A model generated the notes under the pieces. The model made no database searches. It was not told where the DNA came from and was given only the letters and a program-made list of their open reading frames with translations. A stretch of 64,000 nucleotides of DNA. It comes from Haliovirga abyssi (GTDB lineage: Bacteria > Fusobacteriota > Fusobacteriia > Fusobacteriales > Haliovirgaceae). Each line of letters starts with the position of its first letter. Within the stretch, counting starts at the first letter, position 1. This document shows positions 6,645-63,593 of this stretch, in pieces. The stretch spans positions 62,001-126,000 of the forward strand of contig NZ_AP027060.1 of the NCBI RefSeq assembly GCF_030295325.1, given 5' to 3'. Position numbers and translations under genes: made by a program.

Positions 6645-7484
6645 TTGGTAAAAATTGGTAAAATTCAAAAAATGAAGGTTAATAATATTGAAAAAATGGG
6701 TGCTTATTTGGATTCTGGAACAGGTTATAGAGAAGATAATATACTATTACCCAAAAGTCAATTGACAAAAGATGTAAAAGAGGGCGATGAAATAGAAGTT
6801 TTTATTTATAGAGATTCTGAAGATAGATTAATTGCAACAACAAAAAAGCCATATGGACAAGTTGAAGAATTAGCATATTTAAAAGCTGTAGATGAAACAA
6901 CTATAGGTGCTTTTATGGATATAGGATTAGAGAGAGATCTATTCTTGCCATTTAGAGAGCAAAAATATACTATTGAAATTGGGAAAAAATATCTTGTAAA
7001 TATATATTTAGATAAAAGTGAAAGATTATGTGCTAGTACAAATATTTATCAATATTTAAAAGATAATTCACCATATGTGCAAGATGATAGGGTAATAGGA
7101 ATAGTTTATGATATAAAGCCTGGAGTTGGAATTTTTGTTGCAGTAGATAAAATATATAGAGGATTAATACCTGAAAAAGAAAATTTTAAAAAATTAAAAT
7201 GTGGTGAAGAGATAGAAACACGTGTAATAAGAGTTCGTGAAGATGGTAAGTTAGATTTATCAATGAGAGAAAAATCGTATATTCAAATGGATACAGATAG
7301 TGAGATGATCTTTAATGAATTAAAGAAAAATCGTGGTTTTTTAGAATTAAATGATAAAAGTTCGCCAGAAGATATAAAACGTAAATTAAATATGAGTAAA
7401 AAATCTTTTAAAAGAGCTGTTGGAAGATTATTAAAAGAAAATAAGATAATTTTTTCTAACGGTGGAATAAAATTAGTAAAATAG
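6645..7484 (+). CDS. CvfB-like S1-domain RNA-binding protein
   Basis: The protein of about 279 residues is built of consecutive S1-like beta-barrel modules with a C-terminal winged helix, the architecture of the CvfB/YitL family. CvfB proteins bind RNA and influence virulence or stress gene expression in Firmicutes; the role here is not known. Visible landmarks are GAYLDSGTGYREDNILLP (residues about 17-34), GAFMDIGLERDLFLP, GIFVAVDKIYRGLIP and the terminal helix segment MSKKSFKRAVGRLLKENKI. A GTG at 6636 also opens the frame but is only one base from GGAG. The TTG at 6645 is correctly spaced (ten bases) and is chosen. It is monocistronic, with a long-stem terminator after it. Confidence 0.8.
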   Translation: MVKIGKIQKMKVNNIEKMGAYLDSGTGYREDNILLPKSQLTKDVKEGDEIEVFIYRDSEDRLIATTKKPYGQVEELAYLKAVDETTIGAFMDIGLERDLFLPFREQKYTIEIGKKYLVNIYLDKSERLCASTNIYQYLKDNSPYVQDDRVIGIVYDIKPGVGIFVAVDKIYRGLIPEKENFKKLKCGEEIETRVIRVREDGKLDLSMREKSYIQMDTDSEMIFNELKKNRGFLELNDKSSPEDIKRKLNMSKKSFKRAVGRLLKENKIIFSNGGIKLVK

Positions 7485-7837: not shown

Positions 7838-8575
7838 ATGAAAAAGAAAATTCTACAACTAAGGATTGAGATTAAAGGGATAAAACCTCCTATTTGGAGA
7901 AGAATTTTAGTGGAGGATAATATTACATTTTTAGATTTACATAAGATAATTCAAATTGCATTTGATTGGAAAGGGTATCATTTATACCATTTTAGTCCTG
8001 ACAATTATGATGAAGTTAGAATTCTTTCTATGGAAGATGAATTTTATGAGCCATTAGATCTATTGGATTTTTTAGACTTAGATGAATCAAAAGATTATGA
8101 AGAGTCTAAAACTAAATTAAATAAATTTCTAAAAAAAGAAAAAGATAAGATGGTTTACTGTTATGATTATGGAGATAATTGGGAACATTTAATAAAAGTG
8201 GAAAAAATTCTTGATTTTGACAAAAAAGTAAAATATCCAGTATGTATAAAAGGAAAAAGAGCAGCTCCATTAGAGGATATTGGAGGAGTATATGGTTATT
8301 ATGATTTTATGGATGCTCTCCAAGATGAAAACCATGAAATGCATGATGACTATATAGAGATGGGATATAAATTTTATATGAAAGAATTTGATGCAGAAGA
8401 ATTTGATTTAGATAAAATAAATGAAAAATTGAAAGATTACAAAAAATTTGGAGTTTATGAAGAAGATGATGATTATAATGATGAGGATGAATCTATATCT
8501 GATAATATGGAGAATAACAAAAAAATAATAGATTTTTCTGATGTGAAAAAATTTCAAAAAAATAAGAAAAAATGA
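7838..8575 (+). CDS. Plasmid pRiA4b Orf3-like family protein
   Basis: This 245-residue protein belongs to the pRiA4b ORF-3-like family (PF07929). The hallmark segments are LRIEIKGIKPPIWRRILVED (residues 6-25), HLYHF, YCYDYGDNWEHLIKVEKIL (about 107-125) and the GGVYGYYDFMDAL box. The family is found on plasmids, phages and transposons as well as chromosomes; its biochemical function is unknown. The last 40 residues are highly acidic and then Lys-rich, and look unstructured. The ATG is nine bases after GAGGAGG. The gene is followed with no gap by a 5'-truncated ATP-binding regulator, so its 3' neighbourhood looks rearranged. Confidence 0.8.
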   Translation: MKKKILQLRIEIKGIKPPIWRRILVEDNITFLDLHKIIQIAFDWKGYHLYHFSPDNYDEVRILSMEDEFYEPLDLLDFLDLDESKDYEESKTKLNKFLKKEKDKMVYCYDYGDNWEHLIKVEKILDFDKKVKYPVCIKGKRAAPLEDIGGVYGYYDFMDALQDENHEMHDDYIEMGYKFYMKEFDAEEFDLDKINEKLKDYKKFGVYEEDDDYNDEDESISDNMENNKKIIDFSDVKKFQKNKKK

Positions 8576-8576
8576 T

Positions 8577-9248
8577 TTGTTTTATCAATTAGAAGAAGTT
8601 AAGAAATTTATAAAAAATCATTTAAATGTAAGAGGAGAAATTAAAGGGTTACAAAGAACAGATACATATGAAATTCCATTGGATGCAATTAGGGAAGTTT
8701 TGGTAAATGCGATTGTTCATAGGGATTATACCAATATAGGAAGAGATATAAAAGTAGGAATATATGATGATATATTAAATGTAGTATCTCCAGGAGGATT
8801 TCCAAATAGTGTATCTGAAAAAGATATTTTAGAAGGAAGATCAGAAATTAGAAATAGAGTCGTGGCGAGAGTTTTTAAAGAATTGGGATATATTGAACAA
8901 TGGGGAAGTGGAATAAAAAGAATAAAATCATCTTGTATAAAACATGGATTAAAAGAGCCTTCTATAAGGGAAACAGGAGATTTTGTAGATGTTGAAATTT
9001 TCAGAATAGATGAAAAAGTTGAAAACGACGGATTAGCGACGGAAAACGACGGATTAATTTTAGATTATAAAAAGATAGTTTTAAATTATATAGAAAAAAA
9101 TAAAAAGATTAATACAAAAGAATTAAAACAGTTATTAAATATAAAAGATACAAAAGCAAAAAGTATATTTAAAGAATTAATGAATAAAAATTTAATTGAA
9201 AGAAAAGGAAAAGGGAGAAGTACCTATTATGTAATACGAAAAAAATAA
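8577..9248 (+). CDS. 5'-truncated ATP-binding transcriptional regulator (COG2865/AlbA_2-HATPase type), probable gene fragment
   Basis: The 223 residues match only the C-terminal half of AlbA_2/Schlafen-like ATP-binding regulators. They hold the GHKL-like ATPase segment with IREVLVNAIVHRDYTN, SPGGFPNSVSEKDI, EGRSEIRNRVVARVFKELGY and EQWGSGIKRI, then a winged-helix tail (about 160-222). The N-terminal AlbA_2 DNA-binding domain, usually about 200 residues, is missing. The frame is open only from 8547, inside the preceding gene, and the TTG at 8577 has no ribosome binding site. Translation might depend on coupling to the upstream stop. The linker contains a 21-bp duplication (GAAAACGACGGATTA at 9021 and 9042). 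It is most likely a remnant joined to the pRiA4b-like gene by deletion. Confidence 0.65.
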   Translation: MFYQLEEVKKFIKNHLNVRGEIKGLQRTDTYEIPLDAIREVLVNAIVHRDYTNIGRDIKVGIYDDILNVVSPGGFPNSVSEKDILEGRSEIRNRVVARVFKELGYIEQWGSGIKRIKSSCIKHGLKEPSIRETGDFVDVEIFRIDEKVENDGLATENDGLILDYKKIVLNYIEKNKKINTKELKQLLNIKDTKAKSIFKELMNKNLIERKGKGRSTYYVIRKK

Positions 9249-10663: not shown

Positions 10664-12649
10664 ATGAAAAAGAAGATTATAATATTGATATTAAATTTAT
10701 TATTAATATCAAATCTATTTGCTAGTGTAAAAACAAGTTATCGATATTTGCCTTTTGGAAATGGATTGGGAAATGGAGTTTATAGAGTATTTGGAAGAAC
10801 GAAACTAATAAGTTTTTATGACCATATTTATAAACAATATAGTCCAAATGAGATAACTCAAAACTATGTAAAAGATGGGATAGAATGGGGGTTAAATGAT
10901 AAATGGCTCTCTTATGTAAAAGTAAAAAAAGCTAATTATATTAATGGAACTGGAATTTTAGATATAAAAAAACAATATAAAGATATTGAAATAACAGAAA
11001 ATTATTTTATGCCTTTTGAGACGGATAAACGAATTTTAATAGGAGTTCTCAGATTAAAAAATATAGGTAAAGATACAGAATTGTCACCATATTTAAAAGT
11101 AGATGTAAGCATGGGGAATAATTTATCTACATTAAAAGAAACAGTAAATAGAAGTGGAAATATATTTATAGAATCAAATAGTGAGAAAAAGGGATATGAA
11201 TATTTCACATATTTAAGTGATTTGAATAAATTTTCATATAAATCTAAAAAGAAATATCCTAAAAATTTAAGAAGGCAAACAGTTGCACTAGATAATACTA
11301 TTGAAAAAATAGCTAATAATGAAATTGGTGTATTTCAATTTAATAAAATTGTTTTAAAAAAAGGTAAATCTAAGACTATATTTGTAATAATGGGATTGGG
11401 TAAAAAAGATAAACATAAAGATTATTTGGAAGAGATATCAAAAATTAGCAAAGAAGATGGTAAAACTATTTTAAATAATGAGATTAAATTTTGGGAAAAG
11501 TGGCATAGTGTAGAAAAATATCCAAAAAAGATGAAAGAAGATGAAAAAAATCTATATAGACAATCTACAACTATTTTAAAAATGGGGCAAAGTAGAGAAA
11601 AAGGAAAAGCTTATGGACAAATTTTAGCAAGTATGCCTCCAGGTCAGTGGAATATAAGTTGGCCAAGAGATGGGGCTTATTCAATTGTAGCATTATTAAA
11701 GTCGGGGCATATTAAAGAAGCAAAAGCGTTTTTAGAGTTTATGCTTAATGCACCTGGAGGAAAATTTACTAATAAAAAATATATTGGAGTTCCATATAAA
11801 ATTTCTGCTTGTAGATATTATGGAAATGGAGAAGAGTGGAGCGATTATAACAATCATGGACCAAATGTAGAATTTGATGATTTCGGATTATTTTTATGGG
11901 CTTTTACAAAATATGTAGAGACTACAGGAGATATGAAATTTAAAGACAGATATTATAATATAGTGAAAGAGCAAATTGCAGATGTTATAGTTTCGCTTAT
12001 GGAAAAAGAGGGATATTTAAAAGCTGATTCTTCTATTTGGGAAAGGCATTGGGAAAAGGGTGATGTAGATGGGAAAAAACATTTTGCGTATTCTACAATT
12101 AATGGATACAATGGATTAATTAGTTTTAGTAAAATAGGTGATTTGTATGATAATATATTTTATAAAAAAGAAGCTGAAAGAATAAAAAGAGGATTTTTGA
12201 ATAATTTTATTTTAAATAACGTTATAGTATCTAGTTTAGAAGAAAAAAAAGATGGGAATAATTATGCAGATGCAGCAACTGTGGAAGCTATAAATTTTAA
12301 TATGGTAGATGAAAAAATAGCATTAACTACACTGGATTTTTATGAAAAGAATTTGAAAATGAAAAATAGTGTAGGATTTAAAAGAAGTGATGATGGGACT
12401 AAATATGATAGGCAAGAATGGCTTATGATAGATTATAGAATAGCAAATGCGTATATGAAATATGATAAAAAACATTCATATGAAATAATTAGATGGAGTG
12501 TAGATAATGCAAAGGCTAATTATAATTTAATTCCTGAGCTTTTGACAGAAGGAAAAAGTAAATATTATGGTGCTATTCCAATGTGTGGATTTGGAGCTGG
12601 GGCTTATATAATAACTGTTGGGAATTATTATCTTGAGAATAAAAGATAA
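10664..12649 (+). CDS. Exported GH15-like glucan alpha-glucosidase (glucoamylase-type)
   Basis: This 661-residue protein has a cleavable signal peptide (MKKKIIILILNLLLISNLFA, residues 1-20), so it acts in the periplasm or outside the cell. An N-terminal beta-sandwich (about 30-290) precedes an (alpha/alpha)6 barrel with GH15 landmarks: PPGQWNISWPRDGAYSI (substrate-binding WPRD), SSIWERHWEKG with candidate general acid Glu460, and ELLTEG with candidate base Glu629. GH15 enzymes release glucose from the non-reducing ends of alpha-glucans. AAAGGAG precedes the ATG. The GH31 enzyme at 14038 is a likely functional partner; the two are now separated by a ruined restriction locus. Trehalase or dextranase activity cannot be excluded. 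Confidence 0.85.
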   Translation: MKKKIIILILNLLLISNLFASVKTSYRYLPFGNGLGNGVYRVFGRTKLISFYDHIYKQYSPNEITQNYVKDGIEWGLNDKWLSYVKVKKANYINGTGILDIKKQYKDIEITENYFMPFETDKRILIGVLRLKNIGKDTELSPYLKVDVSMGNNLSTLKETVNRSGNIFIESNSEKKGYEYFTYLSDLNKFSYKSKKKYPKNLRRQTVALDNTIEKIANNEIGVFQFNKIVLKKGKSKTIFVIMGLGKKDKHKDYLEEISKISKEDGKTILNNEIKFWEKWHSVEKYPKKMKEDEKNLYRQSTTILKMGQSREKGKAYGQILASMPPGQWNISWPRDGAYSIVALLKSGHIKEAKAFLEFMLNAPGGKFTNKKYIGVPYKISACRYYGNGEEWSDYNNHGPNVEFDDFGLFLWAFTKYVETTGDMKFKDRYYNIVKEQIADVIVSLMEKEGYLKADSSIWERHWEKGDVDGKKHFAYSTINGYNGLISFSKIGDLYDNIFYKKEAERIKRGFLNNFILNNVIVSSLEEKKDGNNYADAATVEAINFNMVDEKIALTTLDFYEKNLKMKNSVGFKRSDDGTKYDRQEWLMIDYRIANAYMKYDKKHSYEIIRWSVDNAKANYNLIPELLTEGKSKYYGAIPMCGFGAGAYIITVGNYYLENKR

Positions 12650-12759: not shown

Positions 12760-12924
12760 ATGCTATATAATATAAAAAAACGTGAAAATATAGAAGAATT
12801 ATGTAAACTTACAGGTAAGGAAGATATTACTAAAAATGATTGGAGTTTAACATATAGTACATATGTTGGAATTACATCAAAAATAGCAGATGAAGATTTT
12901 AATTTTGAGGAGCTAAGAATATGA
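12760..12924 (+). pseudogene. hsdM C-terminal remnant (54 codons)
   Basis: A short frame with its own ribosome binding site (GGGGGG) encodes 54 residues, including DWSLTYSTYVGI and DEDFNFEELRI. These resemble the extreme C-terminus of type I methyltransferase subunits, where a LTPxRYVG segment is followed by an acidic FEE stretch. The rest of hsdM is gone. The stop overlaps the start of the DUF1016 gene (ATGA), the same coupling seen for intact hsdM and yhcG at 61004. It is therefore best read as the tail of a lost methyltransferase gene. Similarity is judged by eye and moderate. Confidence 0.5.
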
Positions 12925-13955
12925 GTATAGAGAAAAATCTATATAAAGAATTTGTTACAGAATTAAAATTAAAAATTAGAAATTCTCAACAAAGAGCAAT
13001 ATTATCAGCAAATAAAGAGTTAATTATTTTATATTGGGAGATTGGAAAGAGTATTCTAATAAGCCAAGAAAAACAAGGTTGGGGAGCAAAAATAATCAAA
13101 CAGTTATCAGAGGATTTAAAGAAAGAGTTTCCTGAAATTAAAGGCTTTTCTGAAAGAAACTTGAAATATATGCGTAAATTTTCTGATACATATAGAGATT
13201 TTCAATTTGTGCAAGAGGTTATTGCACAAATTCCGTGGTATCATAATATTACATTAATGGAAAAAATAAAAGATGATAATAAAAGGAAATGGTATATAGA
13301 AAAAACTATTGAAAACGGATGGTCAAGAAATGTTCTTCTTCATCAGATAGAATATCAACTTTATGAAAGGTCTGATAGTAAAAAAGTAACAAATTTTGAA
13401 AATACTTTACCAAAAGTACAGTCAGAACTTGCAATGCAGACTTTAAAAGATCCATATATATTTGATTTTTTAAGTATTGAAAAAGATGCTCTTGAAAGAG
13501 AAATTGAAAAAGAGCTAGTAAAACATATAAGTTCATTTTTGTTAGAACTTGGAGCAGGTTTTGCGTTTGTAGGAAATCAATATCATTTAGAAATAGCTAA
13601 TAGAGATTTTTACCTTGATCTATTATTTTATCATATAAAATTAAAGTGTTATGTAGTTATTGAATTAAAAACAGGAGAATTTAAGCCTGAATATGCAGGT
13701 AAGATGAACTTTTATTTATCTGCTGTTGATGACAGTTTAAAAAGTGAAGATGATAATCCTACAATTGGAATAATTTTATGTAAAGAGAAAAATAATATAT
13801 TTGCTGAATATACACTTCGTGATATGAATAAACCTATGGGTATTGCAGAGTATAAGTATAATGACATTATTCCTGAAAATTTACAAACGAAACTGCCGAG
13901 TATTGAGGATTTGGAGAAGAAGTTGAGAGATGAGTTTGAGGTAGTAGAAAAATGA
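12921..13955 (+). CDS. yhcG: YhcG/DUF1016-family PD-(D/E)XK nuclease domain protein
   Basis: This 344-residue protein has an N-terminal DUF1016_N helical domain (NKELIILYWEIGKSI, FPEIKGFSERNLKYMR). Its C-terminal PD-(D/E)XK nuclease-like domain contains GAGFAFVGNQYHLE, FYLDLLFYHI (catalytic Asp) and CYVVIELKTGEFKPEYAGK (the ExK element). It is a close paralogue of the protein at 61004-62071, with near-identical motifs. DUF1016 proteins are often encoded inside type I restriction loci; their role there is not settled. Here the gene is intact, but its partners on both sides are remnants (hsdM tail, frameshifted hsdS start). It may therefore be a relic, or kept for an independent function. Confidence 0.85.
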   Translation: MSIEKNLYKEFVTELKLKIRNSQQRAILSANKELIILYWEIGKSILISQEKQGWGAKIIKQLSEDLKKEFPEIKGFSERNLKYMRKFSDTYRDFQFVQEVIAQIPWYHNITLMEKIKDDNKRKWYIEKTIENGWSRNVLLHQIEYQLYERSDSKKVTNFENTLPKVQSELAMQTLKDPYIFDFLSIEKDALEREIEKELVKHISSFLLELGAGFAFVGNQYHLEIANRDFYLDLLFYHIKLKCYVVIELKTGEFKPEYAGKMNFYLSAVDDSLKSEDDNPTIGIILCKEKNNIFAEYTLRDMNKPMGIAEYKYNDIIPENLQTKLPSIEDLEKKLRDEFEVVEK

Positions 13956-14034
13956 TGTGGGAGAAGGTAGAAATTTTGGAAAAATAATTCCAGGAACAAC
14001 ACCTGTAACAAAAAATAAATTACAAGGAGATTAA
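13952..14034 (+). pseudogene. hsdS 5' remnant, frameshifted and truncated
   Basis: An ATG overlapping the yhcG stop (ATGA) reads MMWEKVEIL and then shifts frame. From 13978 the other frame continues GKIIPGTTPVTKNKLQGD and stops at 14034. Joined, they match the start of an HsdS target-recognition domain, where a WEKVxLGEI...IxxGxTPxTKN pattern is standard. Nothing more of hsdS is left. Its last bases provide the AAGGAG ribosome binding site for the GH31 gene. Confidence 0.6.
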
Positions 14035-14037
14035 AAA

Positions 14038-16221
14038 ATGAAAAAAATAGTAATACTAATATTTATATTGTTGTCTATAAATATTTTTTCTCAAGAAACA
14101 ATTAATAACAACAAGCTAAAATTAAAATTTAAAAATGGGATAAATATCTCATTTTATGAAACTACAAAGGGGAAATTAAGAGTAACTGCATTATCTAAAG
14201 ATATGAAATTAAAAAAGAACAGATTTTTTATAAATAAAGAAAAATCTAACGTTAAAATTAAAAAAGATGGAAATAGATATATATTAGGAAAATATATAAT
14301 TGAAGAAATTAAAAATGGTTATAAAGTTAATTTAGAGTCTAATAATAAACTGTTGTATAGTTCAGTTTTTTCTATTACTAAAAAAGGATTTTTAGAAATT
14401 AAAAATAGTTATGATAAAGAACTATTTCACGGAATGGGAGAAGCAAATGATAAATCATCAATTATAGCCAAACAATTTATGATATATCAAAAAGCTGAAT
14501 ATGGCAATCAAGCTAAATTATATATTCCATTTTATTTTACAACTGGTGGTGATGCATATTATTATAATAGCAATTCTAAAGATATTTTTAAATTTGGAAG
14601 GAGAGGCTCTGCTGTATCAAAGGTTTATTCTAAATATGGGTATTTAGATTATTATTATTTTTATGAGAATAGTCCTAAAAAAATAGTATCTGAATTTTAT
14701 AAATTTTCTAAATCGAACTCTTTAATTCCTAAATGGGCTTTTGGATATTTACAGTCAAAATATGGATATAAAAATAGTGAGGAAGTTTATAATTTAATTA
14801 AAAAATTTAAAAAATATAATATACCTGTAAGTGGAGTGATATTAGATTTATACTGGTTTAAACATATGGGAGATTTAGATTGGGATAAAGATAACTGGAA
14901 AGATGTTGCTAAATTGGACAGATATTTAGAAGAAAATGGAGTTAAATTAATAACAATATCAGAACCATTTTTTACAGTTGACTCTAAAAGTTATAAAGAT
15001 TTTAATAAAAATGGAGTTTTCGCAAAAGATAAATATGGAAAAACTTTAAAATTAAGTGGATGGTGGTGTTTTGGATCTGAATATGGTGGGATAATGAATC
15101 CTATTGCTAAAAACAGTTTTGACACTATTGGAAATAGATATGTACAAATGAGAAAAACAGGAATTGATGGATTTTGGACTGATTTAGGAGAACCTGAAGG
15201 AGATCCTACAGAAGCTTATTTTAATGGATATAGTGAATTTGAATTTCACAATTATTATAATAGAGAATGGTCAAAGCTTATTTATAAAAAAATGGTAAAG
15301 GTTTTTCCAAATGAAAGACCATTAATTTTAAGTAGAAGTGGATTTACAGGAAGTGCAAAATATAATGTGTCTGTATGGTCTGGTGATTCATCATCATCAT
15401 ATATAAATTTCAGAAAACAAATAGGAATAGGAATTAATGCTGGAATATCTGGATTTTCATATTGGGGAAGTGATGTTGGAGGATTTCTTAGTGATAGGAA
15501 AAAACCTAAAAAAGAACTGTTTATAAGATGGATGCAATTTGGAACATTTGTACCAGTATTTAGAGCACACGGCTCTTTTTCTCCAAGAGAACCTTGGATG
15601 TATGATGATGAAACAACTAAACTATTAAAATCGTATATTGATTTGAGATATCAAATGTTACCATATATTTATTCAACTGCTTATGAAACATATTTAAATG
15701 GAGTTCCAATGATGAGACCTTTGTATCTTGAATATCCTAAAGATAATTTTGCACAAAAAAGCAGTTTACAATATTTCTTTGGAGATTTTTTAATGGCAGC
15801 ACCAGTAGTTAGAAGAATAAGAGAAAAAAAAGAAAAAGAGGTTTATTTGCCAAAAGGTAATTGGTATGATTTTTATGATTTAAAAAAAATTGTAGGTGGC
15901 AATAAAATAAAAGTAAAAAGAGATATAAATAAAATACCTGTATATATAAAAGAGGGAGCAATATTACCATTTAAAGATTTGATTTTATTATTTCCAGCAG
16001 AGAAAAAATCAGAATTTACGTTATATAATGATGATGGAATTAGTAATAATTATTTAAAGGGAGATTATTCAAAAATAAAAATTATTTTAAAGAAAGATAG
16101 TGTTGAGTTTGAAGGTATTAAAAAAGAGATGACATTTAATTTGAAGATAGTAAAAAATGGTGGAGTTATTAAAAAAGTAGTAGAATTGAAAAAAGGAGAT
16201 AATAAAATTTTGTTTGAATAA
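14038..16221 (+). CDS. Exported GH31 alpha-glucosidase/alpha-xylosidase-type hydrolase
   Basis: This 727-residue secreted protein has a signal peptide (residues 1-18, MKKIVILIFILLSINIFS). It has the GH31 order of beta-sandwich, (beta/alpha)8 barrel and C-terminal beta domains. The catalytic nucleophile is Asp382 in DGFWTDLGEPEG and the acid/base Asp450 in VWSGDSSSSY. Substrate-site residues include the GISGFSYWGSDVGGF and MQFGTFVPVFRAHG segments. GH31 enzymes remove alpha-linked glucose or xylose from oligosaccharides. The DLGEP variant differs from the classical DMNEP, so the exact linkage is open. With the GH15-like enzyme upstream it fits extracytoplasmic breakdown of alpha-glucans. Confidence 0.9.
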   Translation: MKKIVILIFILLSINIFSQETINNNKLKLKFKNGINISFYETTKGKLRVTALSKDMKLKKNRFFINKEKSNVKIKKDGNRYILGKYIIEEIKNGYKVNLESNNKLLYSSVFSITKKGFLEIKNSYDKELFHGMGEANDKSSIIAKQFMIYQKAEYGNQAKLYIPFYFTTGGDAYYYNSNSKDIFKFGRRGSAVSKVYSKYGYLDYYYFYENSPKKIVSEFYKFSKSNSLIPKWAFGYLQSKYGYKNSEEVYNLIKKFKKYNIPVSGVILDLYWFKHMGDLDWDKDNWKDVAKLDRYLEENGVKLITISEPFFTVDSKSYKDFNKNGVFAKDKYGKTLKLSGWWCFGSEYGGIMNPIAKNSFDTIGNRYVQMRKTGIDGFWTDLGEPEGDPTEAYFNGYSEFEFHNYYNREWSKLIYKKMVKVFPNERPLILSRSGFTGSAKYNVSVWSGDSSSSYINFRKQIGIGINAGISGFSYWGSDVGGFLSDRKKPKKELFIRWMQFGTFVPVFRAHGSFSPREPWMYDDETTKLLKSYIDLRYQMLPYIYSTAYETYLNGVPMMRPLYLEYPKDNFAQKSSLQYFFGDFLMAAPVVRRIREKKEKEVYLPKGNWYDFYDLKKIVGGNKIKVKRDINKIPVYIKEGAILPFKDLILLFPAEKKSEFTLYNDDGISNNYLKGDYSKIKIILKKDSVEFEGIKKEMTFNLKIVKNGGVIKKVVELKKGDNKILFE

Positions 16222-16364: not shown

Positions 16365-17165
16365 ATGCTTGATAGAGATTTAGCGGCATTTTATCGGACG
16401 GAAACAAGAGCTTTGAAACAGGCAGTAAGAAGGAATTTAGAGAGATTTCCTGAAGATTTTATGTTTGAATTAGAAGAAGTCGATATTGAATATTTGGTGT
16501 CACAATCTGTGATACCATCAAAAAGTTATTTTGGTGGTGCTAAACCATTTGCATTTACAGAGCAAGGGGTATCAATGCTTAGTGCTGTATTAAGAAGTCC
16601 AACTGCAATAGAAATAAGTGTAAAAATCATCAGAACCTTTGTTAATATGAAAAATTTTTTGTCAGAAAATGCACAAATATTTAAAAGACTTGATAGCCTT
16701 GAAAATTATCAAAAAACATCAGATGAAAAATTTGAAATGATTTTTAATGCTATTAAAAATAAAGGACTAAAACAGAAACAAGGTATATTTTTTAATGGAG
16801 AAATATTTGATGCATATGTTTTTATTTCTGATATTATAAAAAAATCTAAGAGCTCAATAATTCTAATAGATAATTATATAGATGAAAGTGTCCTTACTAT
16901 TCTTTCGAAAAATACAGAAAATATAAAAATTGAAATATATACAAAGAATATAAGCGATAAATTGAGGCTTGATGTTAAAAAATATAATGAGCAATATAAA
17001 AATTTAAAATTAAAAAAATTCAATGATTCTCATGATAGATTTATGATAATAGATAAAAAGGAAGTTTATCATTTTGGAGCTTCTTTAAAAGATTTAGGGA
17101 AAAAATGGTTTGCTTTTTCAAAGTTTGATACTGAAATTATTAGTATTATGGGAAAGTTAAAATAA
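16365..17165 (+). CDS. ORF6N domain protein with PLD-like C-terminal domain (start codon doubtful)
   Basis: The N-terminus is an ORF6N domain of phage-type regulators (MLDRDLAAFYRTETRALKQA, RNLERFPEDFMFEL, FTEQGVSMLSAVL). The C-terminal half (about 145-266) carries SHDRFMIIDKKEVYHFGASLKDLG, resembling a single HxK-type phospholipase D-like module. Homology continues upstream: codons 16290-16364 encode ENEIITLNEYDIKNKIYSIRDKRI, the usual ORF6N beginning. No ATG, GTG or TTG exists there; the codon correctly placed after GGAG is ATA (16290). Either ATA or the internal ATG at 16365 is used, or the start has been lost. ORF6N proteins frequently accompany prophages and restriction islands, which fits the type I remnant 2 kb upstream. 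Confidence 0.7.
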   Translation: MLDRDLAAFYRTETRALKQAVRRNLERFPEDFMFELEEVDIEYLVSQSVIPSKSYFGGAKPFAFTEQGVSMLSAVLRSPTAIEISVKIIRTFVNMKNFLSENAQIFKRLDSLENYQKTSDEKFEMIFNAIKNKGLKQKQGIFFNGEIFDAYVFISDIIKKSKSSIILIDNYIDESVLTILSKNTENIKIEIYTKNISDKLRLDVKKYNEQYKNLKLKKFNDSHDRFMIIDKKEVYHFGASLKDLGKKWFAFSKFDTEIISIMGKLK

Positions 17166-56324: not shown

Positions 56325-59300
56325 ATGAAAAGTAATTTTGAATTTTTGATTGCAGATTGGCCAACTTTAGCCAATTTAGGAGAGTTTGCAGAAAAGAATT
56401 TATTTATTGATTCAAATACAACATTGATAAAATTAAGAGTTTTAGCAGAAAATATAGCAAAATTAATAATTAAGGAAGAAAATTTAATTGATCCTGAAAG
56501 CAATAATCAAATTGATAGATTAAAATTGTTAAAAAGAGAAGATTTACTAGAAAGAGAAATTGAAGAAATTTTTCATAGTTTAAGAATAATAGGAAACAAA
56601 GCTACTCACGAAGGATATTCTTCATTTGATGATGCAGATACTTATTTATCAATGGCTGTTAAATTGTCTGCTTGGTTTAAGGAAGTTTATGGAAGTGATT
56701 TAACTTTTGATTCTGAAACAACAATTTATAAAACACCTGAAAAATTTGAATTAACTTCTGATTATGAAAAACTAAAAAAGGAAAATGAAAAATTATCAAA
56801 AGAATTTAATGAATTAAAAGCAGTAAACAGATCAATTAGAAATAAAGAAGAAAAGAAGATCATCTCAATTAAAGCTGTACAGAAAATTAAATTTGATGAA
56901 AAAGAAACAAGAAAAATTATTGATGAACAATTAAAGAGTGTAGGGTGGGAAGCTGATAGTGGAAATTTAAGATTTTCAAAAGGAACAAGACCAGAAAAAG
57001 GAAGAAACATAGCTATTGCAGAGTGGCCAACATCGAAGATGAGAGTTGACTATGCACTATTTATTGGCTTGGAGTTTGTAGGAGTAATAGAAGCCAAAAA
57101 GAAATCAACTGATGTAATATCAGTTTTAAATGAATCAAAAATCTACTCTGAAAAAGCAAGAATTATAGATAATGAAAAATTTGTAAAAGGAGCACCTTTT
57201 AATAAATATAATATTCCTTTTATGTTTGCAGCTAATGGAAGAGAATATAATAAAACAATTGAAGAAAAATCGGGCATCTGGTTTTTAAATGGAAGAAAAC
57301 CTACTAATCACCCAAAAGCATTAAAAAATTGGTATTCTCCACGTGATATTGAGGAATTATTAAGTAAAAATATTGATGACGGAAACAAGAAACTTGAAGA
57401 GGAACCTTTTAATTATTTGAAATCAAAAGAAGGTTTAGGATTAAGATATTATCAAGTAGAAGCAATACAAGAGGTAGAAAAAGCAATTGTAGAAGGAAAA
57501 GATAAAATATTGCTTACAATGGCAACTGGCACAGGAAAAACAAGAACTGCAATAGCTTTAATTTATAGATTACTAAAAAGTGGAAGATTTAAAAGGATAT
57601 TATTTCTAGTAGATAGAGCAAGTTTAGGGAATCAGGCAGGAGATAGCTTCAAAGAAGCTAAAATGGAAGATTTACAAACTTTTGCACAAATTTATGATGT
57701 AAAAGAAATAAAAGATAAAGAGCTTGAAGATACAACAAAAGTACATATTGCAACAATTCAAGGATTAGTAAGAAGAATTATATATAGTAATGATAATGAA
57801 TTAAAACCAAGTGTGGGTCAATATGATTGTATAATTATTGATGAAGCACATAGAGGTTATATTTTAGATAAAGAGATGGAAGAAGAGGAAGTGAATTTTA
57901 AAAATCAAAATGATTATGTAAGTAAATATAGAACAGCTATAGAGTATTTTGAGGCAGTTAAAATTGGATTGACTGCAACTCCCGCATTGCATACTGTAGA
58001 CATATTTGGACATAGTGTTTATGAGTACAGTTATAGACAAGCAGTAATAGATGGAAACTTAGTTGACCACGAACCACCTGTAATTATTGAAACAGAGTTA
58101 AATACAAATGGTATGGTTTGGCAAGTTGGAGAGGAAGTATCTGTTTATAATAGAAAAGAAGGGAAAGTTGAAAAAGAAAGACTAGATGATGAATTAAAAA
58201 TAGAAATAGAAGGTTTTAATAGAAGAGTAATAACAAAAAATTTTAATAGAACTGTTATAAAAGAATTAGTAAAATATTTAAACCCAGAATCAGAAGAAAA
58301 AACATTAATATTTGCAGCAACAGATGAACACGCTGATATGATAGTAAAAATATTGAAAGAAGAATTTGAAGAATTAGGTTGGGAAATATATGATAATTCT
58401 ATTCAAAAAATAACTGGGTATCTTGGAAAAGGACAAGAAGAAGCTATCAAAAGATTTAAAAATGAAAAATTGCCTAATATTGTTGTAACTGTGGATTTAC
58501 TTACTACAGGAATTAACGTACCTGAAATATGTAACTTGGTATTTATAAGAAGAGTAAAATCAAGGATTTTGTATGAACAAATGATAGGGAGAGCAACAAG
58601 ATTATGTGATAAAATAGGGAAAACTCATTTTAAAATATTTGATACAGTTGGAGTATATGATTCGTTAAAAGATTATACAGATATGAAGCCGATAGTACAA
58701 AATCCTAATCAAAATTTTGAGAAAATGATAGGTGAAATAGAGTTAATAGAAAAAAAAGAACATTTAAATAAAAAGAGAGAAGAAATCATTGCAAAAATAC
58801 AAAGAAAAAAGAAATTAATTGAAAAACAGGAGTTAGAAGAATATTTTAAATTGAAATCAGGAAATAAAACACCAGAAGAATATATTGAAGAAATAAAAAA
58901 GATGCCAGTAGAAGATGCAACTAAAAAATTAATGGATGATATTGAACTATTTAGATATTTAGACACAGTAAAATATTTACCTCAAAAACAATATATTTCG
59001 AATCATAAAGATGCAATAATTGAAGTGAAAAGAGGATATGGGAAAAAAAATAAAAAGCCAGATGATTATTTGGAATCTTTTAAAAAGTTTATAATTGAAA
59101 ACAGTGATAAAATTGAAGCTCTGAAATTATTAAAAACAGCACCAACTAAAATAACTAGGCAACAATTAAGAGGGCTTAAATTAATACTTACAGAAAAAGA
59201 TTTTTCAGAAACATATTTGAACTCTGCATATAAGGATTTAAAAAATGAAGAAATATTAGCAGATATAATAAGTTTCATAAAAAACGCTATTGATAATGAA

Positions 59301-59561
59301 CCGTTAATAAATCATGAGGATAGAATTAAACTTGCAGTAAATAAAATCAGACAAAAAAAACAGTGGAACGCTTTACAAAAGAAATGGTTAGATATAATAG
59401 AAAAACAGTTGTTAGTTGAAAATATAATGCAAAAAGAAGATTTTGATAAATCAGCATTTAAAAATCAAGGTGGATTTAAAAAGATAGATAAAATATTTAA
59501 TGGAGAATTAGAAAGTATAATAGATGAATTAAACAAATATTTATTTAATATTTCAGCATAG
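56325..59561 (+). CDS. hsdR: Type I restriction endonuclease subunit R (EcoEI-like, with DUF4145)
   Basis: The 1078 residues start with a DUF4145 domain (about 1-140), then a coiled linker. The restriction nuclease domain follows (about 185-330; MRVDYALFIGLEFVGVIEAK with the Asp and ExK catalytic elements). An SF2 translocase has Walker A TMATGTGKTRTAIALI, DEAH box IIIDEAHRGY, motif III GLTATPALH and motif VI QMIGRATRLC. The C-terminal EcoEI_R_C-type region contains APTKITRQQLRGLKLIL. The complex cuts DNA lacking the cognate methylation after translocation. The ATG follows GAGGAGGG. It is the first gene of hsdR-hsdM-yhcG-hsdS, with hsdM nine bases downstream. All catalytic motifs are intact. 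Confidence 0.95.
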   Translation: MKSNFEFLIADWPTLANLGEFAEKNLFIDSNTTLIKLRVLAENIAKLIIKEENLIDPESNNQIDRLKLLKREDLLEREIEEIFHSLRIIGNKATHEGYSSFDDADTYLSMAVKLSAWFKEVYGSDLTFDSETTIYKTPEKFELTSDYEKLKKENEKLSKEFNELKAVNRSIRNKEEKKIISIKAVQKIKFDEKETRKIIDEQLKSVGWEADSGNLRFSKGTRPEKGRNIAIAEWPTSKMRVDYALFIGLEFVGVIEAKKKSTDVISVLNESKIYSEKARIIDNEKFVKGAPFNKYNIPFMFAANGREYNKTIEEKSGIWFLNGRKPTNHPKALKNWYSPRDIEELLSKNIDDGNKKLEEEPFNYLKSKEGLGLRYYQVEAIQEVEKAIVEGKDKILLTMATGTGKTRTAIALIYRLLKSGRFKRILFLVDRASLGNQAGDSFKEAKMEDLQTFAQIYDVKEIKDKELEDTTKVHIATIQGLVRRIIYSNDNELKPSVGQYDCIIIDEAHRGYILDKEMEEEEVNFKNQNDYVSKYRTAIEYFEAVKIGLTATPALHTVDIFGHSVYEYSYRQAVIDGNLVDHEPPVIIETELNTNGMVWQVGEEVSVYNRKEGKVEKERLDDELKIEIEGFNRRVITKNFNRTVIKELVKYLNPESEEKTLIFAATDEHADMIVKILKEEFEELGWEIYDNSIQKITGYLGKGQEEAIKRFKNEKLPNIVVTVDLLTTGINVPEICNLVFIRRVKSRILYEQMIGRATRLCDKIGKTHFKIFDTVGVYDSLKDYTDMKPIVQNPNQNFEKMIGEIELIEKKEHLNKKREEIIAKIQRKKKLIEKQELEEYFKLKSGNKTPEEYIEEIKKMPVEDATKKLMDDIELFRYLDTVKYLPQKQYISNHKDAIIEVKRGYGKKNKKPDDYLESFKKFIIENSDKIEALKLLKTAPTKITRQQLRGLKLILTEKDFSETYLNSAYKDLKNEEILADIISFIKNAIDNEPLINHEDRIKLAVNKIRQKKQWNALQKKWLDIIEKQLLVENIMQKEDFDKSAFKNQGGFKKIDKIFNGELESIIDELNKYLFNISA

Positions 59562-59570
59562 GAGGATTTT

Positions 59571-61004
59571 ATGGGAACTGTAGAAATAGTACAAAAATTA
59601 TGGAATTTATGTAATGTTTTGCGAGATGATGGGATTACTTATCATCAATATGTTACTGAACTTACTTATATACTTTTTTTGAAGATGATGAAAGAAACAG
59701 GGCAAGAAGAAATTGAAAGAAAAAATGGTGATATAGAAGTTAAAATACCGGAAGGTTATAGATGGGAAAATATCACAAAAGAATCAGGAATTGAGTTGAT
59801 GAAAAAGTATAAAAGTATACTTAGTTACTTGGGAGAGCATGGAGAAGGTAAAATTAAATATATTTACAATAAGGCAAATACAAATATTGAAGAACCGAGA
59901 AACCTTGAAAAAATAATAAGAGAAATTGATAAACTTGATTGGTATAATGCAAAAGAAGAAGGGTTAGGAAATCTGTATGAAGGTTTATTACAAAAAAATG
60001 CTGAAGAGAAAAAATCAGGTGCAGGGCAATATTTCACACCAAGAGTTTTAATTGATGTAATGGTAGAAATAACAAAGCCTGAGATTGGAGACAAATGTAA
60101 TGATCCCGCTGCTGGAACTTTTGGATTTATGATTGCTGCTGATAAATTCTTAAAAGAAAAGACAAGTGATTATTTAGAATTAGATGAAAAAAAACAAGAA
60201 TTTCAAATAAAAGAAGCATTTTCAGGTTGTGAACTTGTAAGCGATACTCATAGATTAGCTCTTATGAATGCAATGTTGCATGATATTGATGGCAATTTAT
60301 TATTTGGGGATACATTATCTAGTCTTGGAAAAAGTATGAAAGGTTATGATGTTGTTTTAACAAATCCTCCCTTTGGAACAAAAAAAGGTGGAGAACGACC
60401 AAGAAGAGATGATTTACCTTTTATTACTTCAAATAAACAGTTAAACTTTTTACAACATATTTATCGTTCTTTAAATACTAATGGAAAAGCTAGAGCAGCG
60501 GTTGTATTACCTGATAATGTTTTATTCCAAGATGGTGATGGAATGGAAATAAGAAAGAATTTATTAAATAAATGCAATCTTCATACAATATTAAGATTAC
60601 CAACTGGAATATTTTATGCACAAGGTGTAAAAACAAATGTTTTATTCTTAACAAGAGGTGTAAATGATAAAGATAATACAAAAGAGGTTTGGTATTATGA
60701 TTTAAGAACTAATATGCCTAACTTTGGGAAAACTAATCCATTAAAAAGAGAACATTTTAAAGATTTTGAAGAAACATTTATTAATCATAAAAGTGATAAA
60801 TGGACAAAATATACAATAGATGAGATTAAAAATAAAAATTATAATCTTGATTTAGGATTGCAAAAAGATGAAAATCAAATTGACCATGAGGACTTACCAA
60901 ATCCAATCGAAAGTGCAGAAGAAGCAATAGTAAAACTTGAACAGGCAGCAGATTTACTTCAAAGTGTTATTAAAGAACTTCGTTTAAGTGGAGTAGAACT
61001 ATAA
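59571..61004 (+). CDS. hsdM: Type I restriction-modification methyltransferase subunit M
   Basis: This 477-residue N6-adenine methyltransferase has an HsdM N-terminal helical domain (about 1-135, VTELTYILFLKMMKETG). SAM-binding follows with QYFTPRVLIDVMVEI and NDPAAGTFGFMIAADKFL. The catalytic motif IV is VVLTNPPFGTKKGG, and the terminal helices (about 440-477) dock HsdS. It methylates the sequence chosen by HsdS and protects host DNA. The ATG follows AGGAGG. Its stop codon shares one base with the yhcG start (TAATG). The typical LTPxRYVG tail is not obvious here, unlike in the remnant at 12760. Confidence 0.95.
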   Translation: MGTVEIVQKLWNLCNVLRDDGITYHQYVTELTYILFLKMMKETGQEEIERKNGDIEVKIPEGYRWENITKESGIELMKKYKSILSYLGEHGEGKIKYIYNKANTNIEEPRNLEKIIREIDKLDWYNAKEEGLGNLYEGLLQKNAEEKKSGAGQYFTPRVLIDVMVEITKPEIGDKCNDPAAGTFGFMIAADKFLKEKTSDYLELDEKKQEFQIKEAFSGCELVSDTHRLALMNAMLHDIDGNLLFGDTLSSLGKSMKGYDVVLTNPPFGTKKGGERPRRDDLPFITSNKQLNFLQHIYRSLNTNGKARAAVVLPDNVLFQDGDGMEIRKNLLNKCNLHTILRLPTGIFYAQGVKTNVLFLTRGVNDKDNTKEVWYYDLRTNMPNFGKTNPLKREHFKDFEETFINHKSDKWTKYTIDEIKNKNYNLDLGLQKDENQIDHEDLPNPIESAEEAIVKLEQAADLLQSVIKELRLSGVEL

Positions 61005-62071
61005 TGGGAACTATAATTGATAATATAGATTATAAAAACTGGATAAGTAATTTAAAACTAAAGTTTAGAAATTCACAGATAAAAGCAAGTATTTCTGTAA
61101 ACAGAGAGCTTTTAAATTTTTATTGGGAATTAGGAGAAGATATTACCAATATGCAGTTAAAGTATAAATGGGGAAGTAATTTTTTAAAAAATTTGAGTAG
61201 TGATTTAAAAAGAGAATTCCCTGAAATAAAAGGTTTTTCAGAAAGAAATCTCAAATATATAAGGCAATGGTATTTGTTTTGGAATAAAGATGAAATTGGG
61301 CAACAAGTTGTTGCCCAATTAAAAACGATACCTTGGGGAAGTAATATTGTGATAATTTCAAAATGTAATAATATAGAAGAAGCAACCTTTTATTTGAATA
61401 ATATATTGGAAAATGGATGGAGTAGAAGTGTTTTACTTCATCATATTAAGAGCAATTTATATAAGAGGGAAGGAAAAGCAATTACAAATTTTAAAGAGAC
61501 ACTACCTGAAATTTATTCTGATTTAGCCAATGAAACATTAAAAGATCCTTATAAATTTGATTTTCTTAATATAAGTAAAAAATATAGTGAAAGAGAACTT
61601 GAAAATGCTCTTGTGAAAAATATTATGAAATTTTTACTTGAGCTTGGGAAAGGATTTGCATTTATTGGGAATCAATATCATTTAGAATTGAGTGGAAAGG
61701 ATTATTATCTTGATTTGCTGTTTTACCATATAAAATTAAGATGTTATGTAGTAATTGAATTGAAAGTGGGAGAGTTTAAACCTGAATATGCAGGTAAAGT
61801 AAATTTTTATTTAACTCTTGTTGATGAAAAATTAAAAAATGAAACTGATAATCCTAGTATTGGAATTATTTTGTGTACTTCAAAAGATAAAATCACAGCA
61901 GAATATTCATTGAGAGAGATGATAAAACCAATAGGGGTAAGTGAATATGAGGTAATAGAAAAATTACCGAATGAGTTTAAAGATATTCTGCCTACAATAG
62001 AAGAATTTGAAGAAGAGTTTAAAAAGATAGAGTTGGCAGAAAAGGAGACAGAGTATGGCGAAGAAGAATAA
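61004..62071 (+). CDS. yhcG: YhcG/DUF1016-family PD-(D/E)XK nuclease domain protein inside the type I operon
   Basis: This 355-residue protein has DUF1016_N (NRELLNFYWELGEDI, FPEIKGFSERNLKYIRQW) and a C-terminal PD-(D/E)XK nuclease-like domain (GKGFAFIGNQYHLEL, YYLDLLFYHIKLRCYVVIEL, GEFKPEYAGK). The key Asp and ExK residues are present. It overlaps hsdM by one base and hsdS by 17, so it is made with the restriction enzyme subunits. DUF1016 proteins recur in type I loci; proposed roles include an accessory nuclease, and none is settled. A paralogue at 12921 sits in the same relative position in a ruined system, arguing for a specific functional link. Confidence 0.88.
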   Translation: MGTIIDNIDYKNWISNLKLKFRNSQIKASISVNRELLNFYWELGEDITNMQLKYKWGSNFLKNLSSDLKREFPEIKGFSERNLKYIRQWYLFWNKDEIGQQVVAQLKTIPWGSNIVIISKCNNIEEATFYLNNILENGWSRSVLLHHIKSNLYKREGKAITNFKETLPEIYSDLANETLKDPYKFDFLNISKKYSERELENALVKNIMKFLLELGKGFAFIGNQYHLELSGKDYYLDLLFYHIKLRCYVVIELKVGEFKPEYAGKVNFYLTLVDEKLKNETDNPSIGIILCTSKDKITAEYSLREMIKPIGVSEYEVIEKLPNEFKDILPTIEEFEEEFKKIELAEKETEYGEEE

Positions 62072-63593
62072 AGAGAAAAAAAGTATAGATGAATTATTGA
62101 AAGAGGCATTGATCCCAGAAGAAGAGCAGCCTTATGAGTTGCCTGGAAATTGGGCGTGGGTGAGATTAGGAAATATTATTAATTTAATTTCTGGGCAAGA
62201 CGTTTCAAAAAAATTGTGTAATGAGAATAAAATAGGTATTCCGTATATAATGGGTGCAAGTAATATGGAAAATGATAATTTACTTATTGAAAGATGGATA
62301 GAAAAGCCAAAGATTATTGCAAATAAAGGAGATATTATATTAAGTGTAAAAGGTACAGTAGGTAAATTATTAATTTTAAAAGAAGAAAAAGCAAATTTGA
62401 GTCGTCAAGTAATGGGAATAAAATTAAAAAATGATATAGATAATATATTTATATATAGATTTTTTCAAAGTTATATTGAAGAGTTAAAAACTAGAGCCAA
62501 AGGTTTAATTCCTGGAATAAATCGAGATGATATTTTGGAAATAAAATTTCAGCTTCCGCCGTTAGCTGAACAAAAAAGAATAGTTGCAAAACTTGAAGAT
62601 ATGCTTTCAAAAATAAAACAAGCAAAAGAACTAATTACAGAAGCAAAAGAAACTTTTGAACTTCGTAGAGCAAGTATTTTACATAAAGCTTTTACAGGAG
62701 AATTGACTAAAAAATGGAGAGAAGAGAATGAAACTGAATCAGTTGATAAACTTCTTAAAAAGATAAATGAAGAAAAATTAAAAAAATGGGAAGAAAAATA
62801 TAAAATAGCAGAAAAAGAAGGAAAAAGAAAACCTAAAAAGCCTGAAATTAAATCTGTTGAAGAGATGAAGGTCTATGGAAGTGATCAGCCTTATGAATTG
62901 CCTGATGGGTGGTGTTGGGTTATGTTGGGGGATATTACAGAATTTAAGAACGGTTACGCATTTAAAAGTAAATTTTTTACACAAGAAGGGTTACAGGTAA
63001 TAAGGATGGGGAATTTATATCAAAATTCACTTAATTTGGATAGGAATCCTGTTTTTATGCCTTTATCTTTAGATGAAAAAATAGTTAATAAAACAAAATT
63101 GAAAGAAAATGATATACTATTAACTTTAACTGGAACAAAATACAAAAAAGATTACGGTTATGCCATAAAAATTAATAATTTAGGTGAAAGAATGTTATTA
63201 CTTAATCAAAGAATTCTTGGAATAACTACAATTGATGAAATAAACACTTTTATATTTAGATATTTATATTCAAATATTTTTAGGGATAAGTTTTTTAGTT
63301 TTGAAACCGGTGGAGTTAATCAAGGAAACGTAAGTTCAACAGCAACGGCAACCATAGGAGTTCCGTTTCCATCACTTAAAGAACAAACAGAAATTATTCG
63401 ACAGCTTGAACAATTCTTTAGAACAGAAGAAGAAGCAAAAGACCTTCTTGAAATGGAAGAACAAATTGATTTACTTGAAAAATCAATTCTATCAAAAGCA
63501 TTTAGAGGAGAATTAGGGACAAATAATCCTGATGATGAACCTGCTATTGAGTTGTTGAAGAGAGTATTGCAGGAGATGTCTTGTGAGAATTAA
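62055..63593 (+). CDS. hsdS: Type I restriction-modification specificity subunit S
   Basis: The 512 residues hold two target-recognition domains. The first is at about 27-175 (ELPGNWAWVRLGNII) and ends in the conserved helix region PPLAEQKRIVAKLEDMLSKI. The second is at about 280-440 (ELPDGWCWVMLGDIT) and is followed by FPSLKEQTEIIRQLEQFF. Each half also ends with a matching ILHKAFTGEL or ILSKAFRGEL motif. HsdS reads a bipartite DNA target and brings HsdM and HsdR to it. A Lys/Glu-rich stretch (about 225-275) links the halves. The ATG at 62055 lies inside yhcG, indicating coupled translation. The DNA coding QPYEL at both domain starts is similar, which could favour domain shuffling. Confidence 0.93.
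   Translation: MAKKNKEKKSIDELLKEALIPEEEQPYELPGNWAWVRLGNIINLISGQDVSKKLCNENKIGIPYIMGASNMENDNLLIERWIEKPKIIANKGDIILSVKGTVGKLLILKEEKANLSRQVMGIKLKNDIDNIFIYRFFQSYIEELKTRAKGLIPGINRDDILEIKFQLPPLAEQKRIVAKLEDMLSKIKQAKELITEAKETFELRRASILHKAFTGELTKKWREENETESVDKLLKKINEEKLKKWEEKYKIAEKEGKRKPKKPEIKSVEEMKVYGSDQPYELPDGWCWVMLGDITEFKNGYAFKSKFFTQEGLQVIRMGNLYQNSLNLDRNPVFMPLSLDEKIVNKTKLKENDILLTLTGTKYKKDYGYAIKINNLGERMLLLNQRILGITTIDEINTFIFRYLYSNIFRDKFFSFETGGVNQGNVSSTATATIGVPFPSLKEQTEIIRQLEQFFRTEEEAKDLLEMEEQIDLLEKSILSKAFRGELGTNNPDDEPAIELLKRVLQEMSCEN

Follow-up and report, generated by a model that had tools for sequence, protein, structure and literature searches.

An intact yhcG gene bordered by a fragment of hsdM in Haliovirga abyssi, a probable relic of a type I restriction operon

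Gene content of the locus

The genome of Haliovirga abyssi comprises two contigs (2.73 Mb); the stretch analysed here, hereafter denoted the window, is 64,000 nucleotides long and corresponds to bases 62001–126000 of contig C2 (297,551 bp). A yhcG (DUF1016) gene lies in the window between two glycoside hydrolase genes, with a short reading frame overlapping each of its ends:

10664–12649, + strand: GH15-like / trehalase-like glycoside hydrolase gene, upstream neighbour of yhcG
12760–12924, + strand: 54-codon open reading frame, C-terminal fragment of HsdM (type I methyltransferase), with HsdM similarity at 12784–12918 (profile matches)
12907–12912, + strand: GAGGAG, Shine-Dalgarno-like site of yhcG, within codons of the hsdM fragment (sequence)
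12921–13955, + strand: intact yhcG, 344 residues, with DUF1016_N at 15–150 and YhcG_C, of PD-(D/E)XK type, at 173–326 (domain profiles, sequence)
13952–14034, + strand: probable hsdS head, frameshifted, with an ATGA overlap with the yhcG stop (sequence and motif, giving weak support)
14038–16221, + strand: GH31 glycoside hydrolase gene, downstream neighbour of yhcG

A first-pass annotation, made from the letters of the window, had read the 54-codon frame as an hsdM tail, and profiles from PADLOC, PHROG and our own alignments bear this out. The search of its translation against HsdM profiles that the annotation had suggested gave a match to the PADLOC MTase_I model PDLC03035 (E = 2.3e-8, model positions 580–621 of 653), and the same model run against the whole genome recovered window 12784–12918 (E = 8.3e-7). 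An HsdM profile built from other loci was run against the sequence upstream of every yhcG examined and matched the fragment at E = 6.7e-5; the next unrelated match had an E-value of 2.6, and the reverse strand gave none. A class-specific HsdM tail profile matched it at E = 7.3e-7; the fragment also matches the PHROG families phrog_2713 (without function) and phrog_6380 (DNA methyltransferase). None of 200 shuffled versions scored as high as the fragment itself when aligned with any of the best 40 HsdM tails listed. Compared with those tails, the fragment, which ends FEELRI, is without the N-terminal body and without the ~34 last residues, implying at least one internal loss besides the loss of the body. 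A C-terminal fragment of ~45 residues is all of HsdM that is found at the locus. It meets yhcG in an ATGA at 12921–12924, a 4-nt overlap between the end of the fragment and the yhcG start. Neither scrap beside yhcG is repeated elsewhere in the genome, nor is either flank. Insertion-element borders were considered and rejected, there being no edge repeats at the locus and no repeated flank in the genome.

The yhcG frame was rightly described as undamaged, with both domains present in its 344 residues. The protein scores 159 bits against PF17761 (cut-off 32.8) and 226 bits against PF06250 (cut-off 32.5), which places DUF1016_N and YhcG_C over their curated cut-offs, and it matches the PADLOC models of PDC-S02 (the YhcG family) at E = 1.6e-155; PADLOC lists PDC-S02 as a candidate defence family. 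The PD-(D/E)XK motif of YhcG has been given as E-D-E(I/L/V)K (PMC1189080). Its residues D233 and E248-L-K250 are present in the window protein, D233 and K250 being invariant in 45 homologues. The model of the C-terminal domain resembles PD-(D/E)XK nucleases, e.g. AdnA, EndoMS and Hjc (Z 8–9.7), and YhcG is thus predicted to be a PD-(D/E)XK DNase. A search by sequence for a solved YhcG structure found none.

The DUF1016_N domain had no match in a 2005 survey (PMC1189080). Modelled alone (residues 1–160, window 12921–13400; pLDDT 90, pTM 0.78), it has as structural neighbours 1–11 exclusively DNA-binding domains of ParB, Noc or Spo0J (Z 7.7–9.3 over 95–104 residues, rmsd 2.4–3.4; next unrelated 5.2). 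ParB/Noc proteins also rank first in Foldseek, with a non-significant E of 0.23, and no sequence match between the domain and ParB/Noc was found. The model provides a lead towards a ParB/Noc-like DNA-binding domain; the simplest reading of the two predicted domains is that YhcG would be a DNA-binding nuclease working alone. The gene adjoins parA and parB on two unrelated plasmids (L328 1571–4023, Nostoc plasmid p057_C; L334 1088–3951, a Moraxella osloensis plasmid), which is suggestive at most. In two other loci (L180 5308–5481, L179 1060–1233) the ends of long YhcG proteins resemble the winged-helix C-terminal part of the HATPase_c_4 protein encoded at 8577–9248 of the window, suggesting that these YhcG carry an extra DNA-binding domain.

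Downstream, an ATGA at 13952–13955 overlaps the yhcG stop with the ATG of the putative hsdS head. Frame 1 of this piece gives MMWEKVEILEK and a different frame gives FGKIIPGTTPVTKNKLQGD, each ending at a stop codon. The HsdS recognition domain frequently starts with the motif W..V...(I)..G.TP...N, which is ~50-fold commoner in 90 gathered HsdS proteins than in other open reading frames; in the window the two motif halves are, by our count, 7 nt short of the usual spacing of 17 codons, as the loss of 7 nt would produce. The best score was reached by between 1 and 14 of 500 shuffles, or between 4 and 22 of 300, and no useful match was obtained with PADLOC, Pfam and PDB profiles or in a protein search of 96 genomes. 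The frameshifted hsdS beginning claimed in the first-pass annotation is favoured by place, spacing and motif enrichment, but the profile comparison suggested there found no HsdS similarity and the shuffles lie near chance; 13952–14034 is likely, if with weak support, an hsdS head in the right place and register, and its ~25 frameshifted codons are all of HsdS at the locus.

The locus had also been said to separate two probable α-glucan enzymes, of which it can be confirmed that two real glycoside hydrolase genes, GH15-like and GH31, flank it. The ribosome-binding site of the GH31 gene (AAGGAG, 14024–14029) is fused with the end of the probable hsdS head. No terminator was seen between the two hydrolase genes and a promoter scan gave results at chance level; yhcG would now use a ribosome-binding site of its own, probably as part of the transcription unit of the glycoside hydrolases. 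Genomes of the window's order yielded no homologues usable for GH15-like/GH31 synteny; the plasmid records searched for the region, and viral contigs searched with a second query, gave no match. Further out, the gene at 8577–9248 encodes a RecG-like HATPase_c_4 protein that starts mid-family and is probably a truncated remnant, directly preceded by a plasmid pRiA4b ORF-3-like gene (7838–8575). Just 3′ of the GH31 gene, 16365–17165 encodes an ORF6N domain of the phage anti-repressor type; the C-terminal part of the product matches a VPA1262 domain weakly and looks, on inspection by eye, phospholipase-D-like. It is possibly another piece of foreign DNA.

Linked and lone yhcG genes

A second yhcG, ~43 kb away, lies within an intact type I operon of the window:

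56325–59561, + strand: hsdR
59571–61004, + strand: hsdM of another class (PADLOC PDLC03026)
61004–62071, + strand: second yhcG, ~55% identical to the lone yhcG
62055–63593, + strand: hsdS

The first-pass annotation had held that the relic keeps the order and overlaps of this operon. The order M–yhcG–S and the presence of start–stop overlaps are indeed shared, but the junctions differ, with overlaps of 1 nt and 17 nt in the intact operon and of 4 nt and 4 nt in the relic. The intact-operon HsdM is of the PDLC03026 class, as against the PDLC03035 match of the fragment, and its C-terminus is unlike the fragment. HsdM class, ~55% YhcG identity and junctions rule out the relic as a duplicate of the 56–64 kb operon; it descends from another hsdM–yhcG–hsdS operon, with an HsdM class unlike the intact one. 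Aeromonas media pMC64A carries such an operon intact, with an overlap of 4 nt at either border; in Deinococcus aquaticus pDATS03 the M–yhcG–S order recurs, and the HsdM tail aligns well with the window fragment.

To place the lone gene among its homologues, 80 relatives from the genome collection and those of 96 genomes of the window's order were gathered, and the neighbours of each yhcG were scored by HsdM, HsdS and HsdR profiles. In the collection set, 60 of 81 yhcG genes have no adjacent hsd gene, another 14 likewise have none but are close to the end of a contig, and 7 adjoin one; the corresponding counts in the order set are 33, 8 and 10 of 51. Unlinked genes overall number 93 of 132 in clear cases, or 115 of 132 including those near contig ends. 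The loci were found via yhcG, which biases the sample to yhcG survival and makes its apparent hardiness partly an effect of sampling. A tree of 126 YhcG sequences requires 10 changes of the linked state, or no fewer than 8 when well-supported branches are counted, so that yhcG has repeatedly moved into or out of type I operons; the 2005 survey had noted a single link, in Methanosarcina acetivorans (PMC1189080). The gene is also found on plasmids, on phage WO and on integrative elements. Broken copies, common in the window's order, occur even in loci with intact hsdM and hsdS (L227 4720–9121 and L235 2946–6234, with stops or a deletion). Survival of yhcG without hsd neighbours is ordinary for the YhcG family, and is thus less special than had been supposed.

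Two further arrangements were seen among the linked loci. One operon reads hsdM–yhcG–yhcG–hsdS, with two divergent yhcG in tandem (L183 3888–8771). In another (L010 5974–7551), a second, slightly different hsdM C-terminal fragment (7074–7250) stands between yhcG and hsdS, so that yhcG has an hsdM tail on either side.

Orphan hsdM 3′ ends directly precede four other lone yhcG genes, in Methanoculleus (L014), a planctomycete (L015), the Nostoc plasmid p057_C (L328) and a genome of the window's order (L220), in the last of which a truncated hsdS and a second, broken yhcG lie upstream. In a motif test for one HsdM-tail class, 7 of 135 yhcG starts carried the tail, 3 of them as orphans; the reverse strand gave 0 and shuffles predict 0.45. 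The yhcG start codon in L014, L015 and L328 falls within the last hsdM codons (the TATG of LGY). These four tails retain the extreme hsdM 3′ end, unlike the window fragment, which is without most of it and thus records at least one more deletion. The hsdM end likely stays because yhcG is translated from a ribosome-binding site or start inside it, and we infer that the scar on the hsdM side can be explained without any function for the scrap as a protein. Such scars are a rare marker of direction, from operon to lone gene. Their presence in several unrelated microbes makes the relic instructive rather than a new kind of system.

Origin of the relic

The hsdM fragment and the intact yhcG together support the reading of the first-pass annotation that this is a ruined type I locus with yhcG whole. 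Probably, an hsdM–yhcG–hsdS operon whose HsdM belonged to another class than that of the intact operon decayed here. Deletions would have taken nearly all of hsdM and hsdS and left yhcG whole between two scraps. The relic shows no trace of hsdR, the HsdR profile matches in the window being confined to 56334–59558. YhcG would be self-contained, with a helical DNA-binding N-terminal domain (ParB/Noc-like in the model) and a predicted PD-(D/E)XK catalytic domain, so that neither methyltransferase nor specificity subunit would be needed for its persistence. The hsdM scrap would have stayed because deletions reaching further, into the Shine-Dalgarno site and start codon, would silence yhcG.

That the frames beside yhcG are chance and that the gene never had hsd neighbours here is very improbable: the hsdS piece alone is near chance and most yhcG are lone, but for the hsdM side this explanation is refuted by the fragment, which several independent profiles place at the proper end of HsdM, the controls giving no match, and which abuts yhcG with the usual overlap. 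It is unlikely, though less remote, that hsdM tail, yhcG and hsdS head arrived together as a short cassette by recombination, the scraps serving as arms. The occurrence of yhcG on mobile elements would suit such transfer, and the L010 arrangement (hsdM–yhcG–second hsdM tail–hsdS) is the outcome expected if a circular molecule had integrated via the hsdM tail; the tandem yhcG between M and S in L183 points the same way. Tandem and duplication could, however, also arise by ordinary recombination, and the borders of the window locus have neither direct nor inverted repeats, with scraps that occur once in the genome.

For the survival of yhcG, the annotation had offered either a recent event or selection on the nuclease itself. 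Conservation reaches at least 80% in the other 125 sequences at 68 columns, and the window protein agrees with every one of these, which ranks it with the best; its end branch in the YhcG tree is long (0.69), the nearest YhcG stands at ~61%, and its codon-position G+C is similar to that of other genes. By our own estimate, neutral drift since the loss could amount to at most ~0.02 nonsynonymous changes per site. This conservation would be expected of a loss that was recent and equally of selection that continues, so the alternative itself stands; the survival that prompted it is less telling, most homologues being lone. That yhcG is intact through recent loss only, is under no selection and will decay is possible but somewhat doubtful. 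Zero changes at 68 columns would permit drift up to the above limit, and broken yhcG copies are common in the window's order, but the neighbours have lost most of two genes, the hsdM tail with a further internal loss, while yhcG has lost nothing, and most relatives persist alone.

Relation to known systems

The window yhcG shares with other members of YhcG / DUF1016 (PF17761 + PF06250; COG4804; PDC-S02) both domains, at E <1e-45, and the D...ExK active site. Like the family, which is mostly lone with an occasional type I link (Methanosarcina acetivorans, PMC1189080), it stands alone, and it differs in still carrying scraps of the operon left behind. With the hsdM–yhcG–hsdS operons of pMC64A, pDATS03 and window 56–64 kb the relic has gene order and overlapping junctions in common; M and S are intact there, whereas the relic holds fragments.

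An accessory nuclease encoded within a type I operon is commonly taken to assist the restriction enzyme. A yhcG that has outlived its operon with all conserved residues kept, and whose relatives are mostly lone, argues for a YhcG that acts on its own. The relic indicates that a predicted nuclease gene can outlive the defence operon that once contained it, and a contig with one linked and one lone yhcG offers a natural test pair.

The closest parallel is the pair PrrC and RloC, in which a nuclease gene lies inside a type I operon or alone: PrrC is an anticodon nuclease encoded within a type IC operon, and its relative RloC is rarely linked (PMC3874165, PMC3874168). In the window, the yhcG at 61004 is embedded in an intact hsd operon as prrC is, and the lone yhcG is not. 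As a tentative wider proposal, YhcG could be a self-sufficient nuclease with DNA binding of the ParB/Noc type that has time and again entered type I operons between hsdM and hsdS and left them, the hsdM scar of lone copies, a consequence of the borrowed start site, recording the direction. If so, one family would span the operon-bound (PrrC-like) and free (RloC-like) states, with one of each in the window. Both PrrC and RloC act on tRNA, as anticodon nucleases linked to an ATPase, whereas YhcG is predicted to be a PD-(D/E)XK DNase without an ATPase.
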